A stretch of DNA of 54,968 nucleotides from Candidatus Zixiibacteriota bacterium (GTDB lineage: Bacteria; Zixibacteria; MSB-5A5; GN15; FEB-12). The stretch is from contig JBFMGC010000017.1 of assembly GCA_040752815.1 (NCBI GenBank), positions 1 through 54,968 on the forward strand. The letters are read 5' to 3'. The notes under the pieces were generated by a model that searched no databases, had not been told where the DNA came from, and saw only the letters and a list, made by a program, of their open reading frames with translations. A program made the position numbers and the translations under genes. Positions 4,473-40,467 of the stretch are shown here, piece after piece (the stretch's first letter is position 1; each line of letters begins with the position of its first letter).

Positions 4473-7400
4473 TTAAGAACATCCAGAGGTGGCGCCGCAG
4501 GTGTCGCACTTCAGGCAGGTGCCGTTGCGGACCATGGTAAACTGGCCGCATTCGGCGCACATATCGCCCTCGTAACCTCTCAGGCGCGCGATTTCGATTC
4601 TCTCCCGGAAACGGTGGCTGGGCGCAGCAGACCCGGCATTTTCTGCCGGGGCGACAAGCTCAAGCACCGCTTGCGGTTTTGAAGATGCTTCTGCAGCCGA
4701 AGCCTGCATCGGCTCACCATCGGGGGTTCCTCCATGATTGCCGTTGCCCCCTCCGCCGTTACCGCCATTGCCGCCGCGCGGGTCAAAGCGAAGGTGGCTG
4801 CTGTACAGGTCATCACTCACACGGTTGCCACGAGTCAACTGCCCGGTGATCTGGGCTGTGGCTTCCTCTTCTTCTTCGAACTCGATTGATTCTTCCCGCG
4901 GGGCGCCAAGGGTGTCGCTGCGCAGATCGTCCTCGCTGATATGCGCCAGGTCGGTGCGGCCCAGGTAGCTTATCGCCAACTCGCGGAAGATATAGTCAAT
5001 AATCGATGTGGACATCTTGATCGATTTATTGCCGGTCACGATCCCGCTCGGTTCAAACCGGCTGAACAAAAACGCCTCGACAAATTCCTCAAGTGGCACG
5101 CCGTGCTGTAGGCCGAGCGAAACCGAGATGGCGAAGCAGTTCATCAGGGAGCGGAACGCAGCCCCCTCGCGGTGCATATCGACAAAGATCTCACCGAGAG
5201 TGCCGTCGGAGTATTCCCCGGTGCGAAGGTAGATTTTGTGGCCGGCCACCACCGCCTTTTGCGTGTAGCCCGCGCGGCGATAGGGCAGGCGCCGCCGCTT
5301 GGCGATATAGCGGTAGACCAGGCGCTCGGCCATCTTCTGCGACACGTGCTGGACGGTCATGTCCTTCGCCACAGCGCCCTCGTCGAACAACTGCGCACTC
5401 AGCGGCTGGCTCAGCTTGGAGCCGTCGCGATAGAGCGCCACCGCCTTGTTCATCCCCTCCCAGGCGGTCAGATACGCGTTTTTGACATCTTCGATAGTTG
5501 CCTCAGCGGGCATGTTGATCGTCTTGGAGATCGCCCCCGAGATAAACGGCTGTGCCGCCGACATCATCTGGATATGCGCTTTGTAGCTGATGAACCGTTG
5601 TCCGGTCCGTCCGCACTTGTTGGCGCAGTCGAATATCGGCAGGTGGCTGTCCTTGAGGCCGGGGGCGCCCTCGACCGTCATGGTGCCGCAGCAGTACTCG
5701 TTGGCGGCAATGATCTGATCGGGGGTGAACCCGAGTTCCCTGAGCAGACTGAAATCCCATGATTCCGCCACTTTCGGCGTGAACCCCAGTGTTTCATGAA
5801 CGAACTCTTCGCCGAGCACATGTTTGTTGAAAGCGAAGCTAATATCGAAGCAGGCGCCGAGCGCGCTTTCCACTTTCTGAACTTCCTCGTCGCCGAACCC
5901 TTTGGCTTTGAGCGACTCGTGATTCACAAACGGGGCGTCTTTGAGCGTCTTGCGGCCGGTAGCATGGGTGACAATCCGCTCGATCTCGTCCTCGGCATAA
6001 CCGAGGCGGCGCAGAGCGATCGGGATCGACTGATTGATGATCTTGAAATATCCGCCGCCCGCCAGCTTCTTGAACTTCACGAGCGCGAAATCCGGCTCAA
6101 TGCCGGTGGTATCGCAGTCCATGAGCAGGCCGATCGTCCCGGTCGGGGCGATTACGGTCGCCTGGGCGTTGCGATAGCCGTGGACCTCGCCCATTTCGAG
6201 CGCCTTGTCCCAGACCTCGCGGGCCGCCTGAGTCAGATCTTCCGGAAGGTAGTTAGGATTGATCCCGTGCGGCTTGATGGTCAGGCCTTCGTACTCCGAG
6301 CGGTCGGCGTTGTAGGCCGCGCGGCGATGGTTGCGGATGACCCGGAGCATGTGGTTCCGGTTGCGATAGAAGCCGGGGAACGGCCCGAGCTCTCTGGCCA
6401 TTTCGGCCGAGGTCACGTACGCCTGACCGGTCAGGATACTCGAGAGCGCCCCGCACCAGGCGTAGGCTCGCGCCGAATCGTACGGGATACCCAGGCGCAT
6501 GAGCACCGTGCCCAGGTTAGCGTAGCCCAGGCCAAGCGTGCGAAATTCGTAGCTCTTGCGGGCGATCTCTTTCGACGGGAACGACGCCATCAGCACCGAG
6601 ATCTCCAGCACGATAGTCCAGAGCCTGATAGCGTGGCGGTACCCCTCGATATCCAACTGACCGGATTCGTCAAGGAACTTGGCGACATTGATCGAGGCCA
6701 GATTACAGGCAGTATCGTCGAGGAACATGTACTCCGAGCACGGATTGGAGGCATTGATACGGCCGTCCTCGGGGCACGTGTGCCATTCGTTGATGGTGGT
6801 ATCGAACTGGACACCGGGGTCAGCGCATGACCAGGCGGCGTAGCTGATGCTCTCCCACAGATCGGTGGCCGGAATGGCTCTTGCACTCCTGCCGCTGGTG
6901 CGCACTCGGAGCGGCCAATCCTCGCGGGCTCGCAGCTTATCGAAGAAGGCGTTCGGTATGCGGACCGAGTTGTTGGAGTTTTGGCCCGCGACTGTCAAAT
7001 AGGCTTCGCTATCCCAGTTGGTGTCGAGATCGACAAAATCGATTTCGGATACGCCCTGACGGGCTAATTCGAGGACCTTTTTGATATAAGCGGCCGGGAC
7101 GGCATACTGCCGCGCCGAGGCGAGAGCGTTTCTTAGGGCCGGGTTCTTGGCAGGATCGGTTTCGACCTTCTGATGGCCATTGTCACCCTTGGCTGCTGTT
7201 GCCGCAAAGATATCTCGCAACTGCTGGCGAATGACTTTGGATCCGGCTACCAGCGCGGCGACTTTCTGCTCTTCGACCACTTTCCAGTTGATGAAGTCAA
7301 GAATATCGGGATGATCGAGATCGAGACAGACCATCTTGGCGGCGCGCCGGGTCGTACCGCCCGATTTGATGGCGCCGGCGGCGCGATCACCGATCCGCAG

Positions 7401-8123
7401 GAAAGACATCAGCCCCGATGATTTCCCGCCTCCGGAGAGTGGTTCGTTGACACCGCGAAGGTTGGAGAAGTTGCTGCCGGTTCCTGAGCCGTATTTGAAT
7501 AGCCGCGCCTCGCGCACCCAGAGATCCATGATGCCGCCCTCGTTGACCAGATCATCCTGGACGGACTGGATGAAGCAGGCGTGCGGCTGGGGGCGCTCGT
7601 AGGCGTTTTTCGTTTCCGTCATCACGTGGGTTTCGGGATCGATATAGAAATGGCCCTGAGATTTCCCCGCGATCCCGTAGGTTTCATAAAGCCCGGTATT
7701 GAACCACTGCGGGGAATTCGGTGCAGCCACCTGGGCCGCCAGCATGTAGACCAGCTCATCGTAAAACGCCCGGGCATCGTGGTCGGTATCAAAATAGCCA
7801 TGGCGCTGACCCCACTTGCGCCAGCAGTCGGCCAGACGGTGGAACACCTGGCGGGCGTCGGTTTCGCCGCCGGTTTTTTGATGCCCGTCTTCGTCGAGCA
7901 CGGGGTTGCCGTTCTGGTCGACCAGCGGTACGCCGGCCTTGCGGAAGTACTTCTGGGCCAGAATATCCACCGCCACCGGCGACCAATCCTCCGGCACCTG
8001 GATGTTGTCGTGCTTGAAGACAACGGTGCCGTCGGGGTTCTTTATTTCCGATGAGCGATTGGCGAAGTTTATACGAGAATAGGGAGACTCTCCGTCGCGC
8101 GTGAAAAACCGCTGGAGTTTCAA
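4473..8123 (-). CDS. nrdJ: Adenosylcobalamin-dependent (class II) ribonucleotide reductase
   Basis: 1216 residues. It reduces ribonucleotides to deoxyribonucleotides using a radical made from vitamin B12, without needing oxygen. Visible hallmarks: [10 protein letters not shown] (about 135), [13 protein letters not shown] (about 213), [11 protein letters not shown], the radical-site motif NPCSE (about 460), [11 protein letters not shown], and a C-terminal tail with zinc-ribbon pairs CAECGQF and CLKCDTCG ending GCS, which likely shuttles electrons. The length fits the large zinc-tailed form. The start is TTG, supported by AGGAGG 6 nt upstream. Two NrdR-box-like palindromes lie about 145-190 nt upstream of the start codon. 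No nrdA/B genes are seen in the window. Confidence 0.95.
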
Positions 8124-15673: not shown

Positions 15674-16714
15674 CTATTTCGAGACAATGTCCGCCGCCTC
15701 GAGCGGCAGCAGATCCCTTTGAAAACCCTCAGGTCTGAAGAAATTTGGCCGGGGCGCGGCGAAATCACAAAGACCTACCGCAGCCTGCGTTATACGGGCA
15801 GGATGGGAAAACTGCCAGGCTACCGGTACCAGTTGGCCCGGCAGCCAGGTGGTGGTGGCAGGCTGGGGTGAAAAGGTCAGAAGAGTCGATCCCAGCTCCT
15901 CCGAATCGACCCGCAGGTAGATTTGAACGGAGTCTGTCAGACTCTGGTGCGGAAGAAAATAGAACTCGGCCCGGCAGGTTGCGGAATCTTTTTGTGCCAC
16001 GCGAGCGGCAATTAGATCGATACCCAGCGCCGGAAAACTCTTGAGTTTGCCGAGTTCGGCAATCTCGCCCAGCCCGGCCAGAGCGAGCAGCCCCCGGTCG
16101 GCTCGCGGCAACTGGCTTGTGGCCTCCGGGGCAAGCGCTCCGGCCGCGGCCAGTTGCTTCTGGACCCGCGGGATCAGCGCCGTTGTGAAGAACTGCTGGT
16201 TAAGCGTATCGCGAAATAGGAAATAACGCGCCGCCGTAAGTACGTCGCCGAGGGAGTAATTGCCCCTGGACAAGTGGGTCAGATCGACATTTCGGTCATT
16301 GGTAGCGGCCGACCAGCATCCGTAGAGTGCGGCCTGACGCCTGCGGAGAGTGTCCTCGGGTCGACCAAAGGAACTGAGCTGGTAGTACTCGGCCGCCCGT
16401 GAGAACGATGGCGGACCCAGGCCTGCGAGAGAATCGGCCAGGATTTCGAACCAGTTGCCTAGGCGGTCGATTACCTTCTTCCATTCGACATTGTCGAGCA
16501 GTTCGGAGTGCTGGGTGTAGAGGTCGCCGAACGCCTCGGTGATGGCAGCGCTGCCGGTCATCTCGCCACTCTCGATGCGGTCGATTATGACAACAGCTTG
16601 GGCGGGGAATTGATCGGGGTTTTGGTCAGTGTTGTAGACGGCCTGAGTTTTCTCCCGGCTGCAGCTAATGCACAGAACCGCCAGAACAGGAACAAACACC
16701 CTTGTTGATACCAT
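15674..16714 (-). CDS. Putative lipoprotein, last gene of the five-gene membrane cluster
   Basis: 346 residues from ATG 16714; a TTG at 16723 is possible. The N-terminus is a short signal peptide ending LCISCSREK, a fair lipobox with Cys at about residue 18. The mature part is mostly helical to about residue 235 and then beta-rich, with paired strands (AEFYFLPHQSLTDSVQIYLRV) and a final SHPARITQAAVGLCDF. No known domain recognised. It starts 26 nt after the stop of the upstream membrane-protein gene on the same strand, so it is probably the periplasm-facing member of that operon. Confidence 0.7.
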   Translation of the reverse strand: MVSTRVFVPVLAVLCISCSREKTQAVYNTDQNPDQFPAQAVVIIDRIESGEMTGSAAITEAFGDLYTQHSELLDNVEWKKVIDRLGNWFEILADSLAGLGPPSFSRAAEYYQLSSFGRPEDTLRRRQAALYGCWSAATNDRNVDLTHLSRGNYSLGDVLTAARYFLFRDTLNQQFFTTALIPRVQKQLAAAGALAPEATSQLPRADRGLLALAGLGEIAELGKLKSFPALGIDLIAARVAQKDSATCRAEFYFLPHQSLTDSVQIYLRVDSEELGSTLLTFSPQPATTTWLPGQLVPVAWQFSHPARITQAAVGLCDFAAPRPNFFRPEGFQRDLLPLEAADIVSK

Positions 16715-16740
16715 GACCGACAACCATCAATCGCTGTGCA

Positions 16741-17367
16741 CTATAGAAACGATCCGATCCAGTCTTCAATCAAGAAATGCACCCGGCCGATCAGCAGCGA
16801 CACCCGGCCCATCACCGTGTATCCGAAATGCGCGCCGAAGGAAATCATGATGAACCAAATGCCCAGTTTGGCGGCCGCTCCGAGAGTGCCGATGTGCTCT
16901 TTCGAAAAATAGAAGTAGATCAGAGTAGATAAAACTCCAAGAACGACTATTACCGAAAGCAGGGTTGCGCCGAAACCATCGCCACCGTCAAGGGGAAGCA
17001 TCGTGTCCTGCATCTGCGGCAGCACGCGACCATGAAGCTCTGAAATCAGGAAGATCCCAGCGGTGGTGCCCATGACAAATGCCAGCGAAGTTCGCGACAC
17101 CCAGGACCACTTGCCGGACAGGCGACTGAACATGAGAACACCTAAAACGCCGGGGACGAATTTCCACCACTCGCCGCCGAGCATCGGATTCCACAACTGC
17201 TGGACGATAATAGTGTCCCAGATCAGGCCGACCTGATAGCCGGCGGTGAGGCCCGCGAAAATGTGTTCTGCAACGCGATAGACCGGGTTGTCGCGGTACA
17301 TGAACGAAAAGAGCGCCAGCGTGACCAGCGCCACCAGCCAGACCTGGAACAGCTCCCAGCCGCTCAT
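16741..17367 (-). CDS. Multi-pass membrane protein of unknown function
   Basis: 208 residues with five to six predicted membrane helices: about 8-24, 33-55, 68-80, 93-108, 135-152 and 165-190. Conserved-looking polar spots inside or next to helices include YRVAEHIFAGLTAGYQ and FGAHFGYTVMGRV. I do not recognise the family. Its ATG overlaps the stop of the previous gene by 4 nt (17364-17367), which indicates translational coupling. Fourth gene of the 19749-15674 cluster. A channel, energy-coupling or complex-assembly role would be a guess. Confidence 0.75.
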   Translation of the reverse strand: MSGWELFQVWLVALVTLALFSFMYRDNPVYRVAEHIFAGLTAGYQVGLIWDTIIVQQLWNPMLGGEWWKFVPGVLGVLMFSRLSGKWSWVSRTSLAFVMGTTAGIFLISELHGRVLPQMQDTMLPLDGGDGFGATLLSVIVVLGVLSTLIYFYFSKEHIGTLGAAAKLGIWFIMISFGAHFGYTVMGRVSLLIGRVHFLIEDWIGSFL

Positions 17368-18200
17368 GCCGCCCGCCGTTTCGACTGCGAACGTCCCACC
17401 CAGTAACCGACGTTGCCGAGCACTACCAGTCCGATTATCACCAGATGCACCAACGACTGGGACTGCATCCCCACCGTGGCGTCGGCTTCGATCTCGATTA
17501 GCTTCTCATATTCGGCCGCGCCGCGCATCCCGCCGAGCAACCCGACAAACTGGCCCGACGCCACATAGGCGTAGAATTTGGGCGCCATGACCGCGGTTCC
17601 GCCGCAGCCGATCGGCACCCCGTACTGGGCGTTGACAATCGAAACCCAATAGTCGGCGGTGGCGTTGTCGGCGATCTCGAAGATGAACGAGATGTCCGAG
17701 TAGTTTTTGACCGAGTCCATCAGCGGCAGTTGCGCGAGCGGCGTGCCGCTGTTGTCGGTGGGGAAGATCGATTCGATCGATTGCCCCATTCCGGACAGCA
17801 CCGCCACGTAGCCGTACTTATAGCCCAAGTTGACAAAGTCGACACCGTACGTCTTACCGTACTGGTCGCCCATCATGCGGGTGATGCGCTCGGCCATCGA
17901 CGGCCCCCCGTACGGGATGTTGCTTAGCGTGATGACCTTGCAGTTCTTCCTGAACATATGGTGCAATGCGGCGATAGCGATCGGCTCGCACTCGGCGATG
18001 GTGGTCGGATAATAATCGTACACGACCATCACGTTGCAGCCGTCCGGCAGGGCCTCGACAGCATCAAAGAGTGACCGGGCTTCCGGGGTTATGACAATAG
18101 GAAGTGGGGTCGGCAGGAGAAAGGGGAGTATGACCGCAGCCGCCACGGTGAGGTAGATCCAGCGACGGTCGAGCTGATCCATTTTCTGCCAGAAAGACAT
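17364..18200 (-). CDS. Bitopic membrane protein with large extracytoplasmic or soluble domain
   Basis: 278 residues. One membrane helix near the N-terminus (RWIYLTVAAAVILPFLLP) and one near the C-terminus (LVHLVIIGLVVLGNVGYWVG) flank a globular alpha/beta domain of about 190 residues. That domain starts with a strand-turn pattern (CNVMVVYDYYPTTIAECEP) and includes NIPYGGPSMAERI, LGYKYGYVAVLSG and GCGGTAVMAPKFY. The pattern suggests a Rossmann-like or periplasmic-binding-like fold, but I cannot name a family. It follows the upstream gene by 3 nt and overlaps the next by 4 nt. Third gene of the cluster. Confidence 0.75.
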   Translation of the reverse strand: MSFWQKMDQLDRRWIYLTVAAAVILPFLLPTPLPIVITPEARSLFDAVEALPDGCNVMVVYDYYPTTIAECEPIAIAALHHMFRKNCKVITLSNIPYGGPSMAERITRMMGDQYGKTYGVDFVNLGYKYGYVAVLSGMGQSIESIFPTDNSGTPLAQLPLMDSVKNYSDISFIFEIADNATADYWVSIVNAQYGVPIGCGGTAVMAPKFYAYVASGQFVGLLGGMRGAAEYEKLIEIEADATVGMQSQSLVHLVIIGLVVLGNVGYWVGRSQSKRRAA

Positions 18201-18203
18201 CGC

Positions 18204-18863
18204 TCAGCTCTTCCCCATGTAAGTTCGTTCGATACCGAGAATCAGGCGCAGGGACATCGAAGCCGCCCCAAGCGCGGCGCCAATGATAATGCCCCGTTGG
18301 ACCGCCATGTTGGCGCCGTTCATAACATAGGTATTCAGCCACTGCGGCACATCCCCCGGCAACAACTCGAGGAAGGCCTCGCCCATAGGGACACGCCAGA
18401 GCATGATGAGAATAGCAGTGAGCAGAAGCAGGGTGGCTTCCGGGTTACGCGCCCGAAAGGCGCGATACGCTGCCGACGCGATATAAAACGCCAGCGTTGC
18501 GAACATGGTGGCCATCATGGGCGACTGGAGATTGTTAAACAGCCAGTCATAGAGTGATCCATCGCCCCGACCGAAACCTGACCACCACCTGCCGGGAAGA
18601 ACCGCCGGGATTGCCATCGCAAAGACGGCAATCAGAGTAAGAATCTTGTACCGCCAGCCTTCCTTGCGGCGCTCCACGGCAAGCCAGTTCACGCGCACAA
18701 TCGAGACCACTCCGAGAAGCAGCGTGAACCCGCCCACGATTGTCAGCCAGACGGTGAATTCCTGACGAAGGCTCCCGATCAGCGAATCGGCGCGGAAGAA
18801 GAACGCCACCACCATGACAAAGCCGGCGACAAACGCGGTGACTATCGGGAGAGTTGTCCTCAT
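18204..18863 (-). CDS. Multi-pass membrane protein of unknown function
   Basis: 219 residues from ATG 18863; a TTG at 18884 would overlap the upstream gene. About six hydrophobic helices are visible (residues about 5-22, 38-55, 73-88, 113-130, 140-160, 185-205). A distinctive polar segment PGRWWSGFGRGDGSLYDWLF lies between helices 3 and 4. Not recognised. Second gene of the five-gene cluster, 7 nt after the DUF6754-like gene with ATG start and 3 nt before the next. Confidence 0.72.
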   Translation of the reverse strand: MRTTLPIVTAFVAGFVMVVAFFFRADSLIGSLRQEFTVWLTIVGGFTLLLGVVSIVRVNWLAVERRKEGWRYKILTLIAVFAMAIPAVLPGRWWSGFGRGDGSLYDWLFNNLQSPMMATMFATLAFYIASAAYRAFRARNPEATLLLLTAILIMLWRVPMGEAFLELLPGDVPQWLNTYVMNGANMAVQRGIIIGAALGAASMSLRLILGIERTYMGKS

Positions 18864-18870
18864 CGTGAAA

Positions 18871-19749
18871 TCAGACTTCCTCAAACAGATGCACGTACCA
18901 GTCGCCGACCCCGGCAGTGACGAGCACCACGCCTATTATCACCAGGATGACGATTATCATCTTGATAAAGTCCTGCCCCTTGAGGCCGCCGGTCATGATC
19001 GGCTCGCGGGAGAGATAGGCCGATGCCGCATACAGCTCTTCGCCCATCAGAGTGTAGTCACACGCCGCGACAAAAAACGGCAACTGCTCGGCCTGCGCGG
19101 TGCCGGCAATCTGAATCGATCCGGCCGCGTTGCCGGTCTCGGCCAGCAGCAGCGACTCGGCAAAAAACCCGCCCATGTAGATATTGGTGGCGGGGCGCTC
19201 ACGCATCATGTACCCGTTGACGGTCGCGGTAAAGGCGAACTGCTCTCCCGCAACATAGCGGACGGTATCTTTGTCGTAGGAGTCCTTCTTGCCCATCTCG
19301 GTGTACGCCTGCTCGACCACTTCCTGCCCGGCAGCCAGCACCAGCGGGTAGCGGACAGGGACCATCAGCGGGGTCTCATACTGCGCGGTGATTCTGGCCA
19401 CGCGGCCAAGTATCGAAATGCCGGCGATAGTCTGGATTTCGTCGAGTTCCTGGATTCCCGGAATGAACAGCACCGGGCGCCCCATTTCGGTGGCGCGCCC
19501 GACTGCTTCTTCGACAGCGTCCAGACCGGGGATTTTGCGAAGGAAGAGCGGCTTGCCCTGTTTGGCCCAGCGGGTGTAGAGCAAAATGGCTGAGGAGAAC
19601 ACCACGACCAGGATCAAGGCGTTGATCCGGTCGATCCGAAACAGCGATGACTCGACGCTCTGCGCCCAAATCAGTGAGGGGGTGAGGAGGAACGCGAGGG
19701 TGAGTGTGGCTGTCTTCCGGGTGAAGAGGGATCGGAGGTTCACAATCAC
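18871..19749 (-). CDS. DUF6754-like membrane protein, first gene of the cluster
   Basis: 292 residues from GTG 19749; a second GTG at 19743 is also possible. It has a signal-like segment (ATLTLAFLLTPSLIWAQ), a membrane helix (ALILVVVFSSAILLYTRW, about 45-62), a soluble domain of about 190 residues (GRPVLFIPGIQELDEIQTIA, GGFFAESLLLAETG, AAYLSREPIMTG-like), and a C-terminal helix (FIKMIIVILVIIGVVLVTAG). The pattern matches my memory of DUF6754 proteins; no function is known to me. A TTGACA-18-TATATT promoter lies directly upstream and predicts transcription starting at the GTG itself, so the mRNA may be leaderless. Confidence 0.7.
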   Translation of the reverse strand: MIVNLRSLFTRKTATLTLAFLLTPSLIWAQSVESSLFRIDRINALILVVVFSSAILLYTRWAKQGKPLFLRKIPGLDAVEEAVGRATEMGRPVLFIPGIQELDEIQTIAGISILGRVARITAQYETPLMVPVRYPLVLAAGQEVVEQAYTEMGKKDSYDKDTVRYVAGEQFAFTATVNGYMMRERPATNIYMGGFFAESLLLAETGNAAGSIQIAGTAQAEQLPFFVAACDYTLMGEELYAASAYLSREPIMTGGLKGQDFIKMIIVILVIIGVVLVTAGVGDWYVHLFEEV

Positions 19750-19754
19750 AAATC

Positions 19755-19784
19755 AATATACGAGAGTCGGGAGCCGGTTGTCAA
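19755..19784 (-). promoter_or_regulatory. Sigma-70 promoter of the five-gene membrane cluster
   Basis: On the minus strand TTGACA (19784-19779), 18-nt spacer, TATATT (19760-19755). The predicted start near 19748 coincides with the GTG at 19749/19743. Confidence 0.7.
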
Positions 19785-19977
19785 CTGCGTTAGACTGTGT
19801 CGGGAATGGGAACCTCCGGAGGAACGGGAGGAGTATTTTTCGGACTAGCCTACCTACCGCAAAGCTGTTGGCTAACGGGGCCGGCGAGTAATATATTGCT
19901 TGGCAATAGCTCTATCTGTATTGTATTTGCAATGGCCGTTCACTATGGAGCCGCCAAATCACTCCAGGAAGTTTTCT

Positions 19978-21867
19978 ATGGCCGAGCTACCTGAGGATGA
20001 CAGGACGCAATCTTTCGTTGTGCTGACCAAAGGCACAATGGTGTCGCACTATCGGATCGTAGAGAAGATCGGTGCCGGCGGAATGGGCGAGGTCTATTTG
20101 GCGGACGACACGAGGCTCGATCGTCATGTCGCCCTGAAATTTCTGCCTCCCCACCTTTGTCAAGACGAAGGGTGCCGGGCGCGATTCATACGAGAAGCCC
20201 AGGCCGCGGCAAAACTCAGCCATCCCAATATAGTCACGGTTCACGAAGTCAGCGAACTGCACGGCCGTCCTTACATAGTGATGGAGCATGTAGAAGGTCA
20301 GTCATTGCTTGAGGTGATAAAAGGACCCGGATTGACTCCGGATCGAGTAATCAATCTGGTTATACAGGTGTGTGACGGATTGACGGAAGCGCAGAAGTAC
20401 GGAGTTGTACACCGCGACATCAAACCATCCAACATCCTGATCGACTCACACGGCAGAGCCAAATTGCTCGACTTTGGATTAGCGGCAGTCCGCGGAACGG
20501 ACAAGCTCACAAAGACCGGTTCGACCCTCGGCACTCTTGGGTATATGTCTCCCGAACAGGCTTCGGGCCGGACGGTAGATGAGCGATCCGATCTGTTTTC
20601 GCTGGGTGTCGTGCTCTACGAGACGATTACCGGACGGAGGCCGTTCACTGGCGAGGACGAAGCTGCTACTTTGCATGCTGTGACCCACGAGACGCCTCAG
20701 CCCCTGGCGAGGTTCTGCGCGCACGTACCCGATGGGCTCCAGCAGGTAGTGGACAAAGCTCTCCAGAAAGATCCCTCGGTGCGCTATCAGTCGGCATCCG
20801 GGATGATGGCTGACCTGAGGCTTCTGCGACGGAGGTCATACGATACGGATCAGACTATCAAGAGACCCGATGCAAAGAGCCGCTATCTGTTACCTGTCGT
20901 GGGCATGGTAACCCTGATTTTGATCCTCATAGCGGTCGGTTATTTCGCCTTGGAACGAACTAGACTCTCAAGCGGACAGGTCTCTACCAGGTGGACCAAT
21001 TCTATTGCTGTTTTGCCATTCCGCGACTTCAGCGCTAACCGTGATCAGGAGCCATTCTGCGATGGCATGACCGACGCGCTTATCGGCCGGTTGTCGGCCA
21101 TCAAGGACCTGAAGGTCATCTCGATGACATCGGTTATGCGCTTCAAATCACCGGATCGGGACTTGAAGAAAATCGGTCACGATTTGCAAGTGGAGAAGAT
21201 TCTCGAGGGCAGTATTCAACGTGACAGCGGCGCGGTCCGCGTGCGGATGCAACTGATAAACGTTGAAGATGATGCCCAGCTCTGGTCGGATCAGTACGAC
21301 AGCGAGTTGAAGAGCGTATTCACGATACAGGACGACATCTCCCGCTCAATTGTGGAGGCCATGAAGATCGAGTTGCTCGGCGGGGAGGAAACCGCACTCG
21401 TGAAGAGAGCTACGAACAGTGAGGAAGCATACGGCGAATACGTGCAGGGACGATACCACTGGCGCAAGCGAAACGAGGATGCGATAAAGAAGGCCATAGA
21501 GCACTTCGAGACAGCAATCAAATACGACTCGAACTACGCGCTGGCCTATTCCGGCCTAGCCGACGCGTGGTCAGTGCTCCCCACCCACAGCTTCATTACC
21601 ACAGAGGACGCGCTGCCTAAGGCGCGAGAGGCTGCGGAGAAAGCGCTGGAGCTGGATGATCGACTGGGCGAAGCGCATGTGTCCATGGGGCTTGTGCTGA
21701 CGAATGCCAGGAGTATAAGGAATCAGAAAAGGAGTTTCTTGAAGCTATCGACCTTGATCCCGGCTACGTCTGGTCGCACGTATGGTACAGTAACATGCTT
21801 GGGCGTGTGGGAAAACGGGATGAGAGCTTGCGACGACTGCAGCTTGCCTACGAGCTTGACCCGTTGA
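19978..21867 (+). CDS. Ser/Thr protein kinase with TPR tail, 5' part of a frameshifted gene
   Basis: The ATG at 19978 has AGGAAG 6 nt upstream. Kinase domain: GAGGMGEVY glycine loop, ALKFLPP (catalytic Lys), HRDIKPSNIL catalytic loop, DFGLA, GTLGYMSPEQA. A membrane helix follows (YLLPVVGMVTLILILIAVGYFA), then a TolB/FlgO-like domain (SIAVLPFRDFSANRDQE to about residue 495), then the first TPR units. So a membrane-anchored sensor kinase of the PknB type. From about 21705 the frame no longer reads as TPR (RSIRNQKRSFLKLST); the TPR sequence continues one base back in frame to 23351. The last 50 or so residues of this frame are therefore out-of-frame, and the gene is broken or mis-assembled. Confidence 0.85.
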   Translation: MAELPEDDRTQSFVVLTKGTMVSHYRIVEKIGAGGMGEVYLADDTRLDRHVALKFLPPHLCQDEGCRARFIREAQAAAKLSHPNIVTVHEVSELHGRPYIVMEHVEGQSLLEVIKGPGLTPDRVINLVIQVCDGLTEAQKYGVVHRDIKPSNILIDSHGRAKLLDFGLAAVRGTDKLTKTGSTLGTLGYMSPEQASGRTVDERSDLFSLGVVLYETITGRRPFTGEDEAATLHAVTHETPQPLARFCAHVPDGLQQVVDKALQKDPSVRYQSASGMMADLRLLRRRSYDTDQTIKRPDAKSRYLLPVVGMVTLILILIAVGYFALERTRLSSGQVSTRWTNSIAVLPFRDFSANRDQEPFCDGMTDALIGRLSAIKDLKVISMTSVMRFKSPDRDLKKIGHDLQVEKILEGSIQRDSGAVRVRMQLINVEDDAQLWSDQYDSELKSVFTIQDDISRSIVEAMKIELLGGEETALVKRATNSEEAYGEYVQGRYHWRKRNEDAIKKAIEHFETAIKYDSNYALAYSGLADAWSVLPTHSFITTEDALPKAREAAEKALELDDRLGEAHVSMGLVLTNARSIRNQKRSFLKLSTLIPATSGRTYGTVTCLGVWENGMRACDDCSLPTSLTR

Positions 21868-23351
21868 ATCTTGTCACCCTGAGCAATCTGGCCAACAAGA
21901 GAAAGGACGCCAGGAATTGGGAGGAAGCGGAGAGACTGTATCGACAGGTCCTCGAGCTCGAATCCGTACCCTTTGCGGCTGACCGCTTGGGCAGCCTGCT
22001 CCAGACGCTGGGTCGCAACGAGGAAGCCATGGCCCTCTACGTGCGCGTTCTCAAACAATTCCCGACCGATGAAGGGCTATATGCCAGGCTGTGGTACCTT
22101 CACATCCGAATGGGTGACCTGGAAGCCGCATTCAATGACGTTGAGGAGCTCTATAAACAACGACGTGACGATACAAGCAGGTTCATCTCTCGCGGTGACG
22201 TCTATTACACGGTGTTTCGATACGATGAGGCTATCGAGAACTACAAACTCGCTTTGCATTTGAAGCCCAAGTCTGAAATGGCTCTGGAAAGGCTCGTTTG
22301 GGTTTGCCTTGATGCCGGACGCTTCGATGAGGCCATAAAGTATGCGAATAGGTACGTTGAATTCTGGCCTGACCAAACTTGGTCCTACCGCTTGCGCGGA
22401 TGGGTCAATTCCGTCAGGGGAGACCTTGATCAGGTGTTCGGCGATGTCAAGAGGTTGGCGAAACTCGCTCCCGACGACCTGACTCCTTATGCGTTGGAGG
22501 CCGTTACTTACCTTCATTTGGGGAAATTCGCGCGTGCCATGGAGATCATCGAGGACAAATATCTGTCGAGTGACATCGCTGATAATCGAAGGTACGGGGC
22601 CGGCACCAATGCACGCATCCTAGTCGCACAGGGGAAGTTCAACCGTGCGCTGGCATATCTCGACAGTTGTCTTGTCGCCGACAGCCTGAGTGATCTCCTA
22701 TATGACGTAGCGTCGGCGAGATTGCAAAGGATGTATCTCTACGAAGAGATGGGGGATTTCGATCGAGCCTTGGCAGAGGGGAGACGTGTTGCCGAACTCT
22801 ATTTGGAAGCTGATCCTGGTGAGATGATCGCATGGAAGGATTACCTGGTGCAGATTCTCGCCATGCGCGGTGACTTTGATGAAGCGGAAGAAGTTGTGCG
22901 GTGGCTCAAAACCAAAGCCGGGGGACGCACGCTGGCCAGCAACGGGTTTTATTATGGCCTGGGGGCCATTGAATTTGCTCGTGGTGACTACGAGTCGGCC
23001 ATAGAGTACCTGAAAATCAGTGCCGACAGCACACCGGATCGCTCGTCAAGTGGCTACTTCCAGGCACCGATCCTACTCGCCAGGGCGTACCTTGAGGCGG
23101 GGCAGCTCGAAAAAGCGATTGGTCTTTACGAAACCCTCTTAACGAACACATCAACCAATCGTATAGATTGGGTGGTCCAAATAACCAAGGCCCGGTATCA
23201 CCTTGGTCGTGCCTACGAACTGGCCGGTCGCCCCCGTGACGCTGCGACGCAATACGAGAAGTTCCTCAATTATTGGGGTAATGCGGACGTGCGACTTGAG
23301 TCTGTCGATTACGCCCGTGCCCGGTTGGCTAAATTGAAGGCCGGATCTTAA
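21795..23351 (+). CDS. TPR-repeat continuation of the kinase gene, 3' part after frameshift
   Basis: 518 residues from the first ATG in this frame, but protein-like sequence starts earlier, near 21708 (QEYKESEKEFLEAIDLDPGY), directly continuing the kinase's TPR unit. About ten TPR-like helical pairs follow (for example EEAERLYRQVLELESVPFAA and GDYESAIEYLKISADSTPD), ending ARARLAKLKAGS. TPRs usually bind partner proteins. It has no ribosome site of its own, so I regard it as the C-terminal half of one roughly 1120-residue protein. If translated alone it would be a soluble TPR protein. Confidence 0.8.
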   Translation: MLGRVGKRDESLRRLQLAYELDPLNLVTLSNLANKRKDARNWEEAERLYRQVLELESVPFAADRLGSLLQTLGRNEEAMALYVRVLKQFPTDEGLYARLWYLHIRMGDLEAAFNDVEELYKQRRDDTSRFISRGDVYYTVFRYDEAIENYKLALHLKPKSEMALERLVWVCLDAGRFDEAIKYANRYVEFWPDQTWSYRLRGWVNSVRGDLDQVFGDVKRLAKLAPDDLTPYALEAVTYLHLGKFARAMEIIEDKYLSSDIADNRRYGAGTNARILVAQGKFNRALAYLDSCLVADSLSDLLYDVASARLQRMYLYEEMGDFDRALAEGRRVAELYLEADPGEMIAWKDYLVQILAMRGDFDEAEEVVRWLKTKAGGRTLASNGFYYGLGAIEFARGDYESAIEYLKISADSTPDRSSSGYFQAPILLARAYLEAGQLEKAIGLYETLLTNTSTNRIDWVVQITKARYHLGRAYELAGRPRDAATQYEKFLNYWGNADVRLESVDYARARLAKLKAGS

Positions 23352-37605: not shown

Positions 37606-40467
37606 TCAAAGGCAATCCGGCAGGCCGAGCGCCGCGCCGGTTATGAACAAATAGTCGATCAGAATCGTAATGTCACCAATCGAGATGTCTTCACAGGTTG
37701 CGTTGAGCCCTCCGGACTGATTGATATCCGCTTCGGTCAGGCAGTCCAGAACGCCGACACATGATCCGGAGATAAACTTGGCGTCAATCATTACCGTGAC
37801 GTCGCCGATAGTCGGCTCGTCCTCGCCGCTCATATTGGCGTCGCCGACCCTGTTACGGCAGCAGGTCTGGCAGACATCGCCGCATTCCGGATCCTGGGCG
37901 TAGGGCCCGGCCGGGCAGTTGCCGTCGGTGTCGGTCTGAGCTGGGTTCGGCTCGTTCCGGCAGTTGTCGCACACATCCCCAACTCCGTCGCCGTCGGTAT
38001 CGGCCTGATCGGGGTTGGCGAAAGTCGGACAGTTGTCGATTCCGCAGATACCGCCCGGTCCGCCGGGGTCGCCCACGCCGTCGCCGTCGGAGTCGGCGCA
38101 CGCCGCGTTCAGTATGACCGTCATCTTCTGGCCTGAATAGCTCACTCCGCCCAGATCAAGATCCCCGTCGCCATCCATATCCGAGGCCAGCCCTGCCTGG
38201 TAATTGCCAGTGCCGAGCATCAGAATGGCACCGAATGCGCCGTCGCCGTCGTTTATGAAGACACCGATCCCGGTGCTGCCGTAAACCGCTATATCGGGAT
38301 GAGTGTCGCCGTTGACATCCGCAGTACAGACCGCTTCCGGTTTGAGTGTGCCGGTAGTAAGCGTCGTCGTATTGTAAGAGCCGATACCCGCTTTCAGTAA
38401 CACCGACACCGAGCTGCCCGAGTAATTTGCTGTTATGGGGTCGAGATTGGTGTCGCCGTTGACATCGGCCACAGCCACCGAGCGGGGCCCGTCACCCACG
38501 GCGTAGCGGGATTCCGAGTCAAAAGTTCCGGGGCCGTCATTCCAGAGTATCACGAGTTCGTCGGTCGAATACGCGGGGTAGCCGAGATCAAAGTCGCCGT
38601 CACCGTCGAAATCTGCCGTGGAAAGCATATAAGGAAGGCCGGTCGCGGGCCGTTGGGCCATCGTGCCAAACGAACCGGAGCCCAGGTTGAAGTGCAGGCG
38701 CACGGCGGAAGCGTCGCTGCTGGCGGCGGCCAGATCAATGTCGCCATCGGCATCGAAGTCAGCGGCGACAACCGAGCGCGGGGCATTCACTGTCACGACC
38801 GGCGCGGCCGCACCAAACGTGCCGTCGCCGTTATTCAGCAGAACCGAAAGCGTGTTGGATTGTGAGTTGGCCGCCGCCAAATCAGGGTGGCCGTCGCCGT
38901 TCAGGTCGGCGGCGACCACCGAGCGCGGACCGTTCTGGACAACGTAATTGGTCGACACGCCTAAAGTCCCATCGCCGTTAGCGAGACGAACCGTCAGGCT
39001 GGCGGCCGACGCATTGGCCGAGATCAGATCGGCTGAGCCGTCACCGTTGAGATCGGCTGAGGATATCCATAGGGGGCCCTGTGCCGTGGCATAGTCAGCA
39101 GGCGCGCCAAATGCGCCGGTGCCGTAGGCGACCGCGGTCGTGTATGACCAGGAGTGACCATGAAGGAGGCAGAGTCCGGAGGCGCTCTCGCAGCCGGGAG
39201 TCATAATCACGGAAACCTGCTCGCCGGCCATGAAATCGGACGCCGGGTCAAGGGTTACCGACCGGGACGGGTTGTCATAGGCGATCGCCACGTTGTGGCG
39301 GCCTGATACGCTTGCATAGACGAAAGCGTTTGCTGCCGCGATGGTAGCTGGATCCATGTCACAACTGAAGCCGGCAATTACGTTTGCCGACGTGGGCGCA
39401 TCGGTGTCGTTGATGGACGGTAATGTCGGCGTGCAGACTGGATAGGCGATGCCGATCGGTTCGAGATAGTAAATCCATGACTCACATCCCACCTCGTTGA
39501 CACCCATCCGAATGCGGAACCAGCCGCGCTGGCCATTAGGACCTAACTCGCCCCAGTCGGTCCCCCAGGAGTTTTTGACCAACCAGCAGTTCGTGGCGTT
39601 GTCCCAGCCATAAACGGTCACCAGGTGACCACCCTCATACGCACCGCTCACGTATTCATAGACCCCGCCCACATACGAGTTGAAATCTTCATAGACGTCC
39701 ATGTGTGCCGCGACCGGACCGGACTGCACGATATGGTTCTTGATCGTCTCAATTGAGGGGTAGGAGAAATTCCCGTAGGTCGACAGGTCGTAGGCGCGCA
39801 AGGCCCAATCATCGCAGCGATTATCGCACGGCGGCACCGAACCGCCACCCGACACGTAGGGAAAACAGGCTTCGTCGGGGTTTCCATTGTCCATGAACAT
39901 GCTCATGACCCAATCGGCGTTGGCGCCATCGCATGACCCCCGCCAGCAGGAAACCATGTTCTGCTCCGACACGTCCACGAACATATTCGGCTGGTTCAAA
40001 CGTATGCGCAGGCGGGCCTCGAACATGGCCGACGTGGCAAACGCCCAGCAGCTTCCGCATCCCCCCTGATCCTTGATTGACGTCATCCAGTTCCAACCCA
40101 GGTAGTTTCCCCAGGTGAACGCCGGCGGAGCGGCGGCCTGATCGCCCGGTTGCGGAACCGGCCTGACGTCCGGGGCGGTACGGTCTACTATGCTGCCGAG
40201 GGCAGCCCGGCGCTCGTCAACGGACATGCGTGTTCGCGACGTTTCCCCGGCGGTCCAGGAGGCCCCTTTGGCGTCGATGGCCTGGCGAATTCGGTCGACA
40301 TCGTAGGCAGTCATTTGCCCAAGTAGAGCCGGAGTGAACAAAACGGCGACGAGCGCCGCAATATACAGAGTCACAAAAGCGCGACGCTTGTCCGGGCATC
40401 GTGAGTGAACAAGAGGGCAGGTGCTACTTTGAGTGCGCCTCGAAACAGGAACTAACCAATACCACAT
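37606..40467 (-). CDS. Secreted papain-family cysteine protease with FG-GAP repeats and dockerin
   Basis: 953 residues from ATG 40467 (CAGGAG 6 nt upstream). Signal segment LYIAALVAVLFTPALLG (about 34-50), short propeptide, then a C1A peptidase domain with oxyanion Gln134, Cys140 (GGCGSCWAF), His281 (GGHLVTVYGW) and Asn299 (VKNSWGTDWG). An Ig-like stretch (about 345-440) follows, then FG-GAP/VCBS repeats (SADLNGDGSADLISA, AADLNGDGHPDLAAA, ADFDADGDIDLAAA), thrombospondin type 3 calcium repeats (DTDGDGVGDVCDNC), and two dockerin-like units (IGDVTVMIDAKFISG, IGDITILIDYLFITG). All catalytic residues are present. It probably works outside the cell and docks to a surface partner. Confidence 0.92.
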   Translation of the reverse strand: MWYWLVPVSRRTQSSTCPLVHSRCPDKRRAFVTLYIAALVAVLFTPALLGQMTAYDVDRIRQAIDAKGASWTAGETSRTRMSVDERRAALGSIVDRTAPDVRPVPQPGDQAAAPPAFTWGNYLGWNWMTSIKDQGGCGSCWAFATSAMFEARLRIRLNQPNMFVDVSEQNMVSCWRGSCDGANADWVMSMFMDNGNPDEACFPYVSGGGSVPPCDNRCDDWALRAYDLSTYGNFSYPSIETIKNHIVQSGPVAAHMDVYEDFNSYVGGVYEYVSGAYEGGHLVTVYGWDNATNCWLVKNSWGTDWGELGPNGQRGWFRIRMGVNEVGCESWIYYLEPIGIAYPVCTPTLPSINDTDAPTSANVIAGFSCDMDPATIAAANAFVYASVSGRHNVAIAYDNPSRSVTLDPASDFMAGEQVSVIMTPGCESASGLCLLHGHSWSYTTAVAYGTGAFGAPADYATAQGPLWISSADLNGDGSADLISANASAASLTVRLANGDGTLGVSTNYVVQNGPRSVVAADLNGDGHPDLAAANSQSNTLSVLLNNGDGTFGAAAPVVTVNAPRSVVAADFDADGDIDLAAASSDASAVRLHFNLGSGSFGTMAQRPATGLPYMLSTADFDGDGDFDLGYPAYSTDELVILWNDGPGTFDSESRYAVGDGPRSVAVADVNGDTNLDPITANYSGSSVSVLLKAGIGSYNTTTLTTGTLKPEAVCTADVNGDTHPDIAVYGSTGIGVFINDGDGAFGAILMLGTGNYQAGLASDMDGDGDLDLGGVSYSGQKMTVILNAACADSDGDGVGDPGGPGGICGIDNCPTFANPDQADTDGDGVGDVCDNCRNEPNPAQTDTDGNCPAGPYAQDPECGDVCQTCCRNRVGDANMSGEDEPTIGDVTVMIDAKFISGSCVGVLDCLTEADINQSGGLNATCEDISIGDITILIDYLFITGAALGLPDCL

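Follow-up and report, generated by a model that had tools for sequence, protein, structure and literature searches.

A conserved four-gene membrane unit headed by a DUF6754 protein in Zixibacteria and other bacterial phyla, a candidate envelope complex with a MutL-like partner

A unit of four genes, G1-G2-G3-G4, headed by a member of the DUF6754 family, is conserved in the same order in many bacterial phyla, occurs as ancient paralogous copies in Zixibacteria and nearly always has with it a set of partner proteins including a MutL-like protein and a protein named C15. The evidence on the association of G1 to G4 consists of gene order, co-inheritance and co-occurrence. This gene unit is well supported, and its four products may form a physical multi-subunit complex. 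A possible role, put forward here tentatively, is that of an inner-membrane complex which, served by MutL and C15, exports or assembles a component of the envelope.

The operon and the extent of the conserved unit

The window, i.e., the whole stretch of DNA that was analysed (54,968 nt), is contig C17 of a Candidatus Zixiibacteriota assembly of 3.19 Mb in 136 contigs, and its nearest named relatives are almost entirely Zixibacterial MAGs. Five open reading frames, G1 to G5, span positions 15674-19749 on the minus strand. They are separated by 7 nt (G1-G2), 3 nt (G2-G3) and 26 nt (G4-G5), with a 4-nt overlap (ATGA) between G3 and G4, which bears out the tightly spaced minus-strand operon of the preliminary description. 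Alternative TTG starts are found upstream of the ATG of G2 and at 16723 for G5. The promoter that had been placed ahead of the operon is present as a consensus match and is not a mapped promoter: TTGACA-18-TATATT, read from 19784 to 19755 on the minus strand, agrees with the consensus at 11/12 positions. Because its -10 element ends close to the GTG start of G1, the mRNA is predicted to be nearly leaderless. An 11/12 match was found within the 200 nt upstream of G1 in 10 of 61 related loci, against 0 of 61 shuffled sequences.

The window also carries a 655-aa Ser/Thr kinase ORF (Pkinase, 173 bits) followed by an overlapping 518-aa TPR ORF in another frame (19900-23351, plus strand); the end of the kinase ORF looks out of frame, so both may belong to one kinase-TPR gene whose frame is broken near 21,800, either by a frameshift or by a fault in the assembly. 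On the minus strand are encoded a class II (B12-dependent) ribonucleotide reductase, unusually long at 1216 aa, with its barrel-domain match in two stretches (4473-8123), and a probably secreted papain-family protease with FG-GAP, Big_5 and TSP_3 repeats (37606-40467).

Profiles from each protein were run over the ORFs of about 120 loci. The order G1-G2-G3-G4 is found on one strand in most of the about 80 loci with enough sequence, and 43 of 80 G3-G4 pairs overlap by exactly 4 nt. Since order and spacing recur across phyla, the arrangement is more than a matter of chance. Named carriers belong to the Zixibacteria, Eisenbacteria, Coatesbacteria, WOR-3, Zipacnadia, Brocadiaceae, Anammoxibacter and other Planctomycetota, together with MAGs labelled as Bacillota and as a goat-rumen bacterium. 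Exceptions exist: other genes lie between G2 and G3 in three Zixibacterial loci (L098, L100 and L104), and G1 is separate from G2-G3-G4 in genomes G086 and G087.

The expectation that all five genes stay together in other genomes therefore holds for G1 to G4 and fails for G5 (346 aa from its ATG; 15674-16714, minus strand), which lies behind G4 in 14 of the 46 Zixibacterial loci that extend far enough downstream and in none of the loci examined elsewhere. Given this distribution, G5 is regarded as an accessory, Zixibacterial add-on. Its description as a lipoprotein fits its sequence, in which an invariant Cys18 follows a hydrophobic stretch (consensus LLLxGCG). In 22 loci a sugar nucleotidyltransferase gene directly follows G4. 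The five-gene system initially proposed is thus a conserved unit of four genes, whose wider partners, namely c57, C18, the MutL-like protein and C15, are encoded outside the window.

Membrane subunits G1 to G4

Regarding G1 (292 aa with a GTG start; 18871-19749, minus strand), the term "DUF6754-like" was an understatement, the protein being a true member of the family (PF20539; 395 bits against a curated cut-off of 27, E 2e-118, positions 3-250 of 257, i.e., 248/257). As for the other subunits, its membrane topology was predicted from averaged hydropathy and charge, and comprises a signal peptide, a TM helix (residues 44-62), a cytosolic alpha/beta domain (63-260) and a second TM helix (261-279); an AlphaFold2 model of moderate confidence (pLDDT 79) is likewise alpha/beta. 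Conservation is strong in the cytosolic domain, where many polar residues are invariant, whereas the outer part, which is short in the window copy, varies by lineage: it can be missing, FN3-like or a beta-propeller. Repeats of the PQQ-type beta-propeller are found in the outer part of G1 from several distant lineages, and the FN3-like assignment was made for one tandem copy with an E-value of 2.5e-4 on a sub-sequence, below Pfam's own cut-off. In some Zixibacteria (L060, L063 and L185), one cassette is headed by two adjacent G1 genes, which suggests that G1 could act as a heteromer. The DUF6754 family has no known function, and a search of open-access journal papers returned neither a paper naming DUF6754 or PF20539 nor a description of the system.

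The two multi-pass membrane proteins announced by the preliminary description are G2 (219 aa from its ATG; 18204-18863, minus strand) and G4 (208 aa; 16741-17367, minus strand), each with six predicted TM helices, the N-terminus being in for G2 and out for G4. A conserved cytosolic loop, YRAFRAR, follows TM4 of G2. Neither protein has a conspicuous buried pair of acidic residues of the sort usual in ion-driven transporters, which counts against the export or assembly model proposed below. G3 (278 aa; 17364-18200, minus strand) is predicted to consist of a TM helix (15-33), a periplasmic domain (34-249) and a second TM helix (250-268); the periplasmic domain yields a confident Rossmann-like AlphaFold2 model (pLDDT 92), and residues D62, E70, P73, D121, D149, T202 and Q217 are invariant.

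The initial impression that none of the five proteins carries a domain of known function stands, G1 being a DUF and G2, G3, G4 and G5 matching no Pfam or NCBIfam family; equally, family, PDB and PADLOC searches assigned none of the genes to a known unrelated family. Profile searches of PDB sequences with G1 to G5, C15 and C18 gave no convincing match. With the models of G1 and G3, Foldseek against the PDB returned nothing below an E-value of 0.001 and only generic partial Rossmann-like matches. The anti-phage models of PADLOC matched none of the eight components at E 0.1. Profile comparisons between G1 and G3, G2 and G4, and G1 and C15 revealed no shared ancestry, and a kinship of G1 with G3 was rejected as the short alignment covers the C-terminal TM helix only.

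Paralogous cassettes and partner proteins

Five DUF6754 genes, each with its cassette, are present in the genome of the window: the window copy (type W), three tandem cassettes on contig C7 (L009 4635-16055) and one on contig C8 (L010 6234-9092). All of the 61 genomes searched in the same order of bacteria have DUF6754 genes, with one to six copies per genome. In gene trees of this genome with outgroups and five further Zixibacterial genomes, the tandem types T1, T2 and T3 and the window type W are each monophyletic for all four genes, with support of at least 0.99, from which it follows that the four genes were duplicated as a set, and passed on as one, ahead of the divergence of the sampled Zixibacteria. 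That several copies have been kept almost universally among the Zixibacteria suggests an important role in the envelope.

The partners comprise a MutL-like protein of the ASKHA ATPase family (about 600 aa), C15 (about 380 aa, barrel-sandwich), C18 (about 117 aa) and c57 (about 150 aa), a predicted membrane protein with a weak match to YcxB. In several non-Zixibacterial genomes, C18, MutL-like and C15 genes, often with c57, flank the cassette on either side, and all or most parts are clustered in L108, L156, L157, L178 and L180. In the genome studied here, the MutL and C15 genes stand beside the triple cassette on C7 (L009 470-4244) and c57-C18 are found on contig C93. Between MutL and C15 (L009 1607-2371, minus strand) is encoded a 254-aa protein with a signal peptide, a C-terminal TM helix and no family match.

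The MutL-like partner matches PF13941 end to end (425.6 bits, cut-off 27) and keeps phosphate motifs of the ASKHA type (DCGSTTTKA and DIGGATTDVF); it falls below the NCBIfam cut-offs for GlmL, both equivalog (235.9 vs 475 bits) and subfamily (165.4 vs 204 bits). Three inspected genomes, belonging to some of the Zixibacteria, encode MutL and C15 as one fused reading frame of 933-982 aa free of N runs (L197 4010-6958, with similar fusions in L198 and L199), suggesting that the two proteins belong to a single unit. In these fusions the C15 portion has diverged, and stand-alone copies are present in the genomes as well. C15 itself has a weak barrel-sandwich match to RnfC_N (E 0.0024; 2.8e-4 in the fusion), and since it has no invariant cysteine, an Fe-S cluster is unlikely.

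The link between DUF6754 and C15 extends to whole genomes. In two phylum samples, identified via the named loci that they contain, 149 genomes divide into 17 with both genes, one with each gene alone and 130 with neither (17/18 vs 1/131; Fisher p 3e-20, shared ancestry ignored), and 294 genomes, with 76 DUF6754 and 71 C15 carriers, into 68 with both, 8 and 3 with one alone and 215 with neither (68/76 vs 3/218; p 1.5e-53, shared ancestry again ignored). G3 is found in 17 genomes of the smaller sample, every one of which has DUF6754. DUF6754 and C15 also co-occur where they lie apart in the genome, G086 and G087 being examples. In the phylum of the window, C15 is present in 123 of 132 genomes and in 77 of the 78 good ones.

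Proposed function and comparison with known systems

The reading that is tentatively preferred, at somewhat less than even confidence, sees in the operon one of five paralogous cassettes for a conserved inner-membrane complex of four subunits, served by MutL-C15, for envelope export or assembly. G1 would present its DUF6754 alpha/beta domain to the cytosol and its lineage-variable domain to the outside, G3 would contribute the second soluble domain, Rossmann-like and periplasmic, and G2 and G4 would make up most of the membrane part. A single cytosolic unit made of MutL, a putative ATPase of ASKHA fold, and of C15 would serve every cassette in trans, with C18 and c57 as putative small partners. 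It can be hypothesized that ATP binding or hydrolysis by this unit resets or energises the membrane complex and that the resulting change of state across the bilayer drives its likeliest job, which is to export or assemble a component of the envelope. The client would be chosen by G1, through its variable outer part, and by accessories such as G5. Against this model, the MutL family is best known for its association with B12 enzymes, not as an energiser of membrane machines, and an ASKHA ATPase of the MutL-C15 kind is not known to act on such a machine. The module also lacks a companion substrate, enzyme or transport family shared by all lineages; its neighbouring genes change from one lineage to the next. 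A link with glycolysis, considered from gapA-pgk-tpiA upstream in L108 and from ptsI and PGI upstream in some Zixibacteria, was rejected as neither recurs across lineages.

The cassette could instead be a transmembrane sensor, in which the outer part of G1 and the periplasmic domain of G3 detect a ligand or the state of the envelope and signal via the DUF6754 domain to MutL-C15. Variable outer domains (FN3, beta-propeller) on a strongly conserved cytosolic domain, several paralogues per genome and the Ser/Thr kinase gene divergent from the window copy would all suit such a role, which is nevertheless judged unlikely since no conserved output domain or regulator accompanies the module and two 6-TM subunits exceed the usual needs of a sensor. 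Somewhat less probable still is a membrane enzyme complex in which the alpha/beta domains of G1 and G3 are catalytic and MutL-C15 is a chaperone that uses ATP to reactivate the enzyme, the part proposed for GlmL with B12-dependent glutamate mutase. The membership of MutL in PF13941 at 425 bits, a family that includes accessory proteins of B12 enzymes according to NCBIfam names, and the invariant polar residues of G1 and G3 speak for this reading, but the long MutL lies below the GlmL cut-offs and G1 and G3 display neither a recognised cofactor-binding motif nor a confident structural match.

Quality control of membrane proteins, as by HflKC or SPFH-NfeD, is improbable. Genes for TldD/PmbA-like, SpoIVB-like and HtpX-like proteases, read by eye, lie nearby in some lineages, but none is consistently linked, and the sole apparent fusion of DUF6754 with an S49 peptidase is an artefact: in a one-contig genome, a scaffold run of N (L194 8358-8457) joins the two genes in frame, and automatic annotation would turn them into a false fusion. 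A redox-driven ion pump akin to Rnf or Nqr, to which only the weak RnfC_N match of C15 points, is very improbable, as G2 and G4 match no subunit of either.

Returning to the envelope complex, the whole may constitute a type of envelope machine not described before, which displays alpha/beta domains on either side of the membrane, is duplicated as entire cassettes, is driven by a shared ASKHA ATPase, MutL-C15, and is kept in nearly every Zixibacterium and in about one quarter of the genomes sampled from the phylum containing the Planctomycetes; this too is advanced with reserve. Its novelty rests on four membrane genes having no recognisable homologue, and would be less if the function proved to be ordinary transport. 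By analogy only, it can be likened to the PilM-PilN-PilO-PilP platform of type IV pili, which combines a cytosolic protein of actin fold with membrane subunits that carry periplasmic domains and sometimes with a lipoprotein. The two differ in that there is no sequence match, two 6-TM subunits are present here and no pilin genes recur in the clusters. With MutL/GlmL (PF13941; NCBIfam GlmL), the partner shares an end-to-end match and the ASKHA-type motifs; in contrast to the family's 450-500 aa, it has about 600 aa, scores below the GlmL cut-offs, is paired or fused with C15 and co-occurs with DUF6754. A membrane-related role is thereby suggested for one branch of a family so far known for its B12-enzyme accessories. 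Finally, G1 is a full member of DUF6754 (PF20539), and what distinguishes the present account is the fixed partners described from genome data: with G1-G4, c57, C18, MutL and C15 tied together, a Pfam family of unknown function becomes testable as a whole system.
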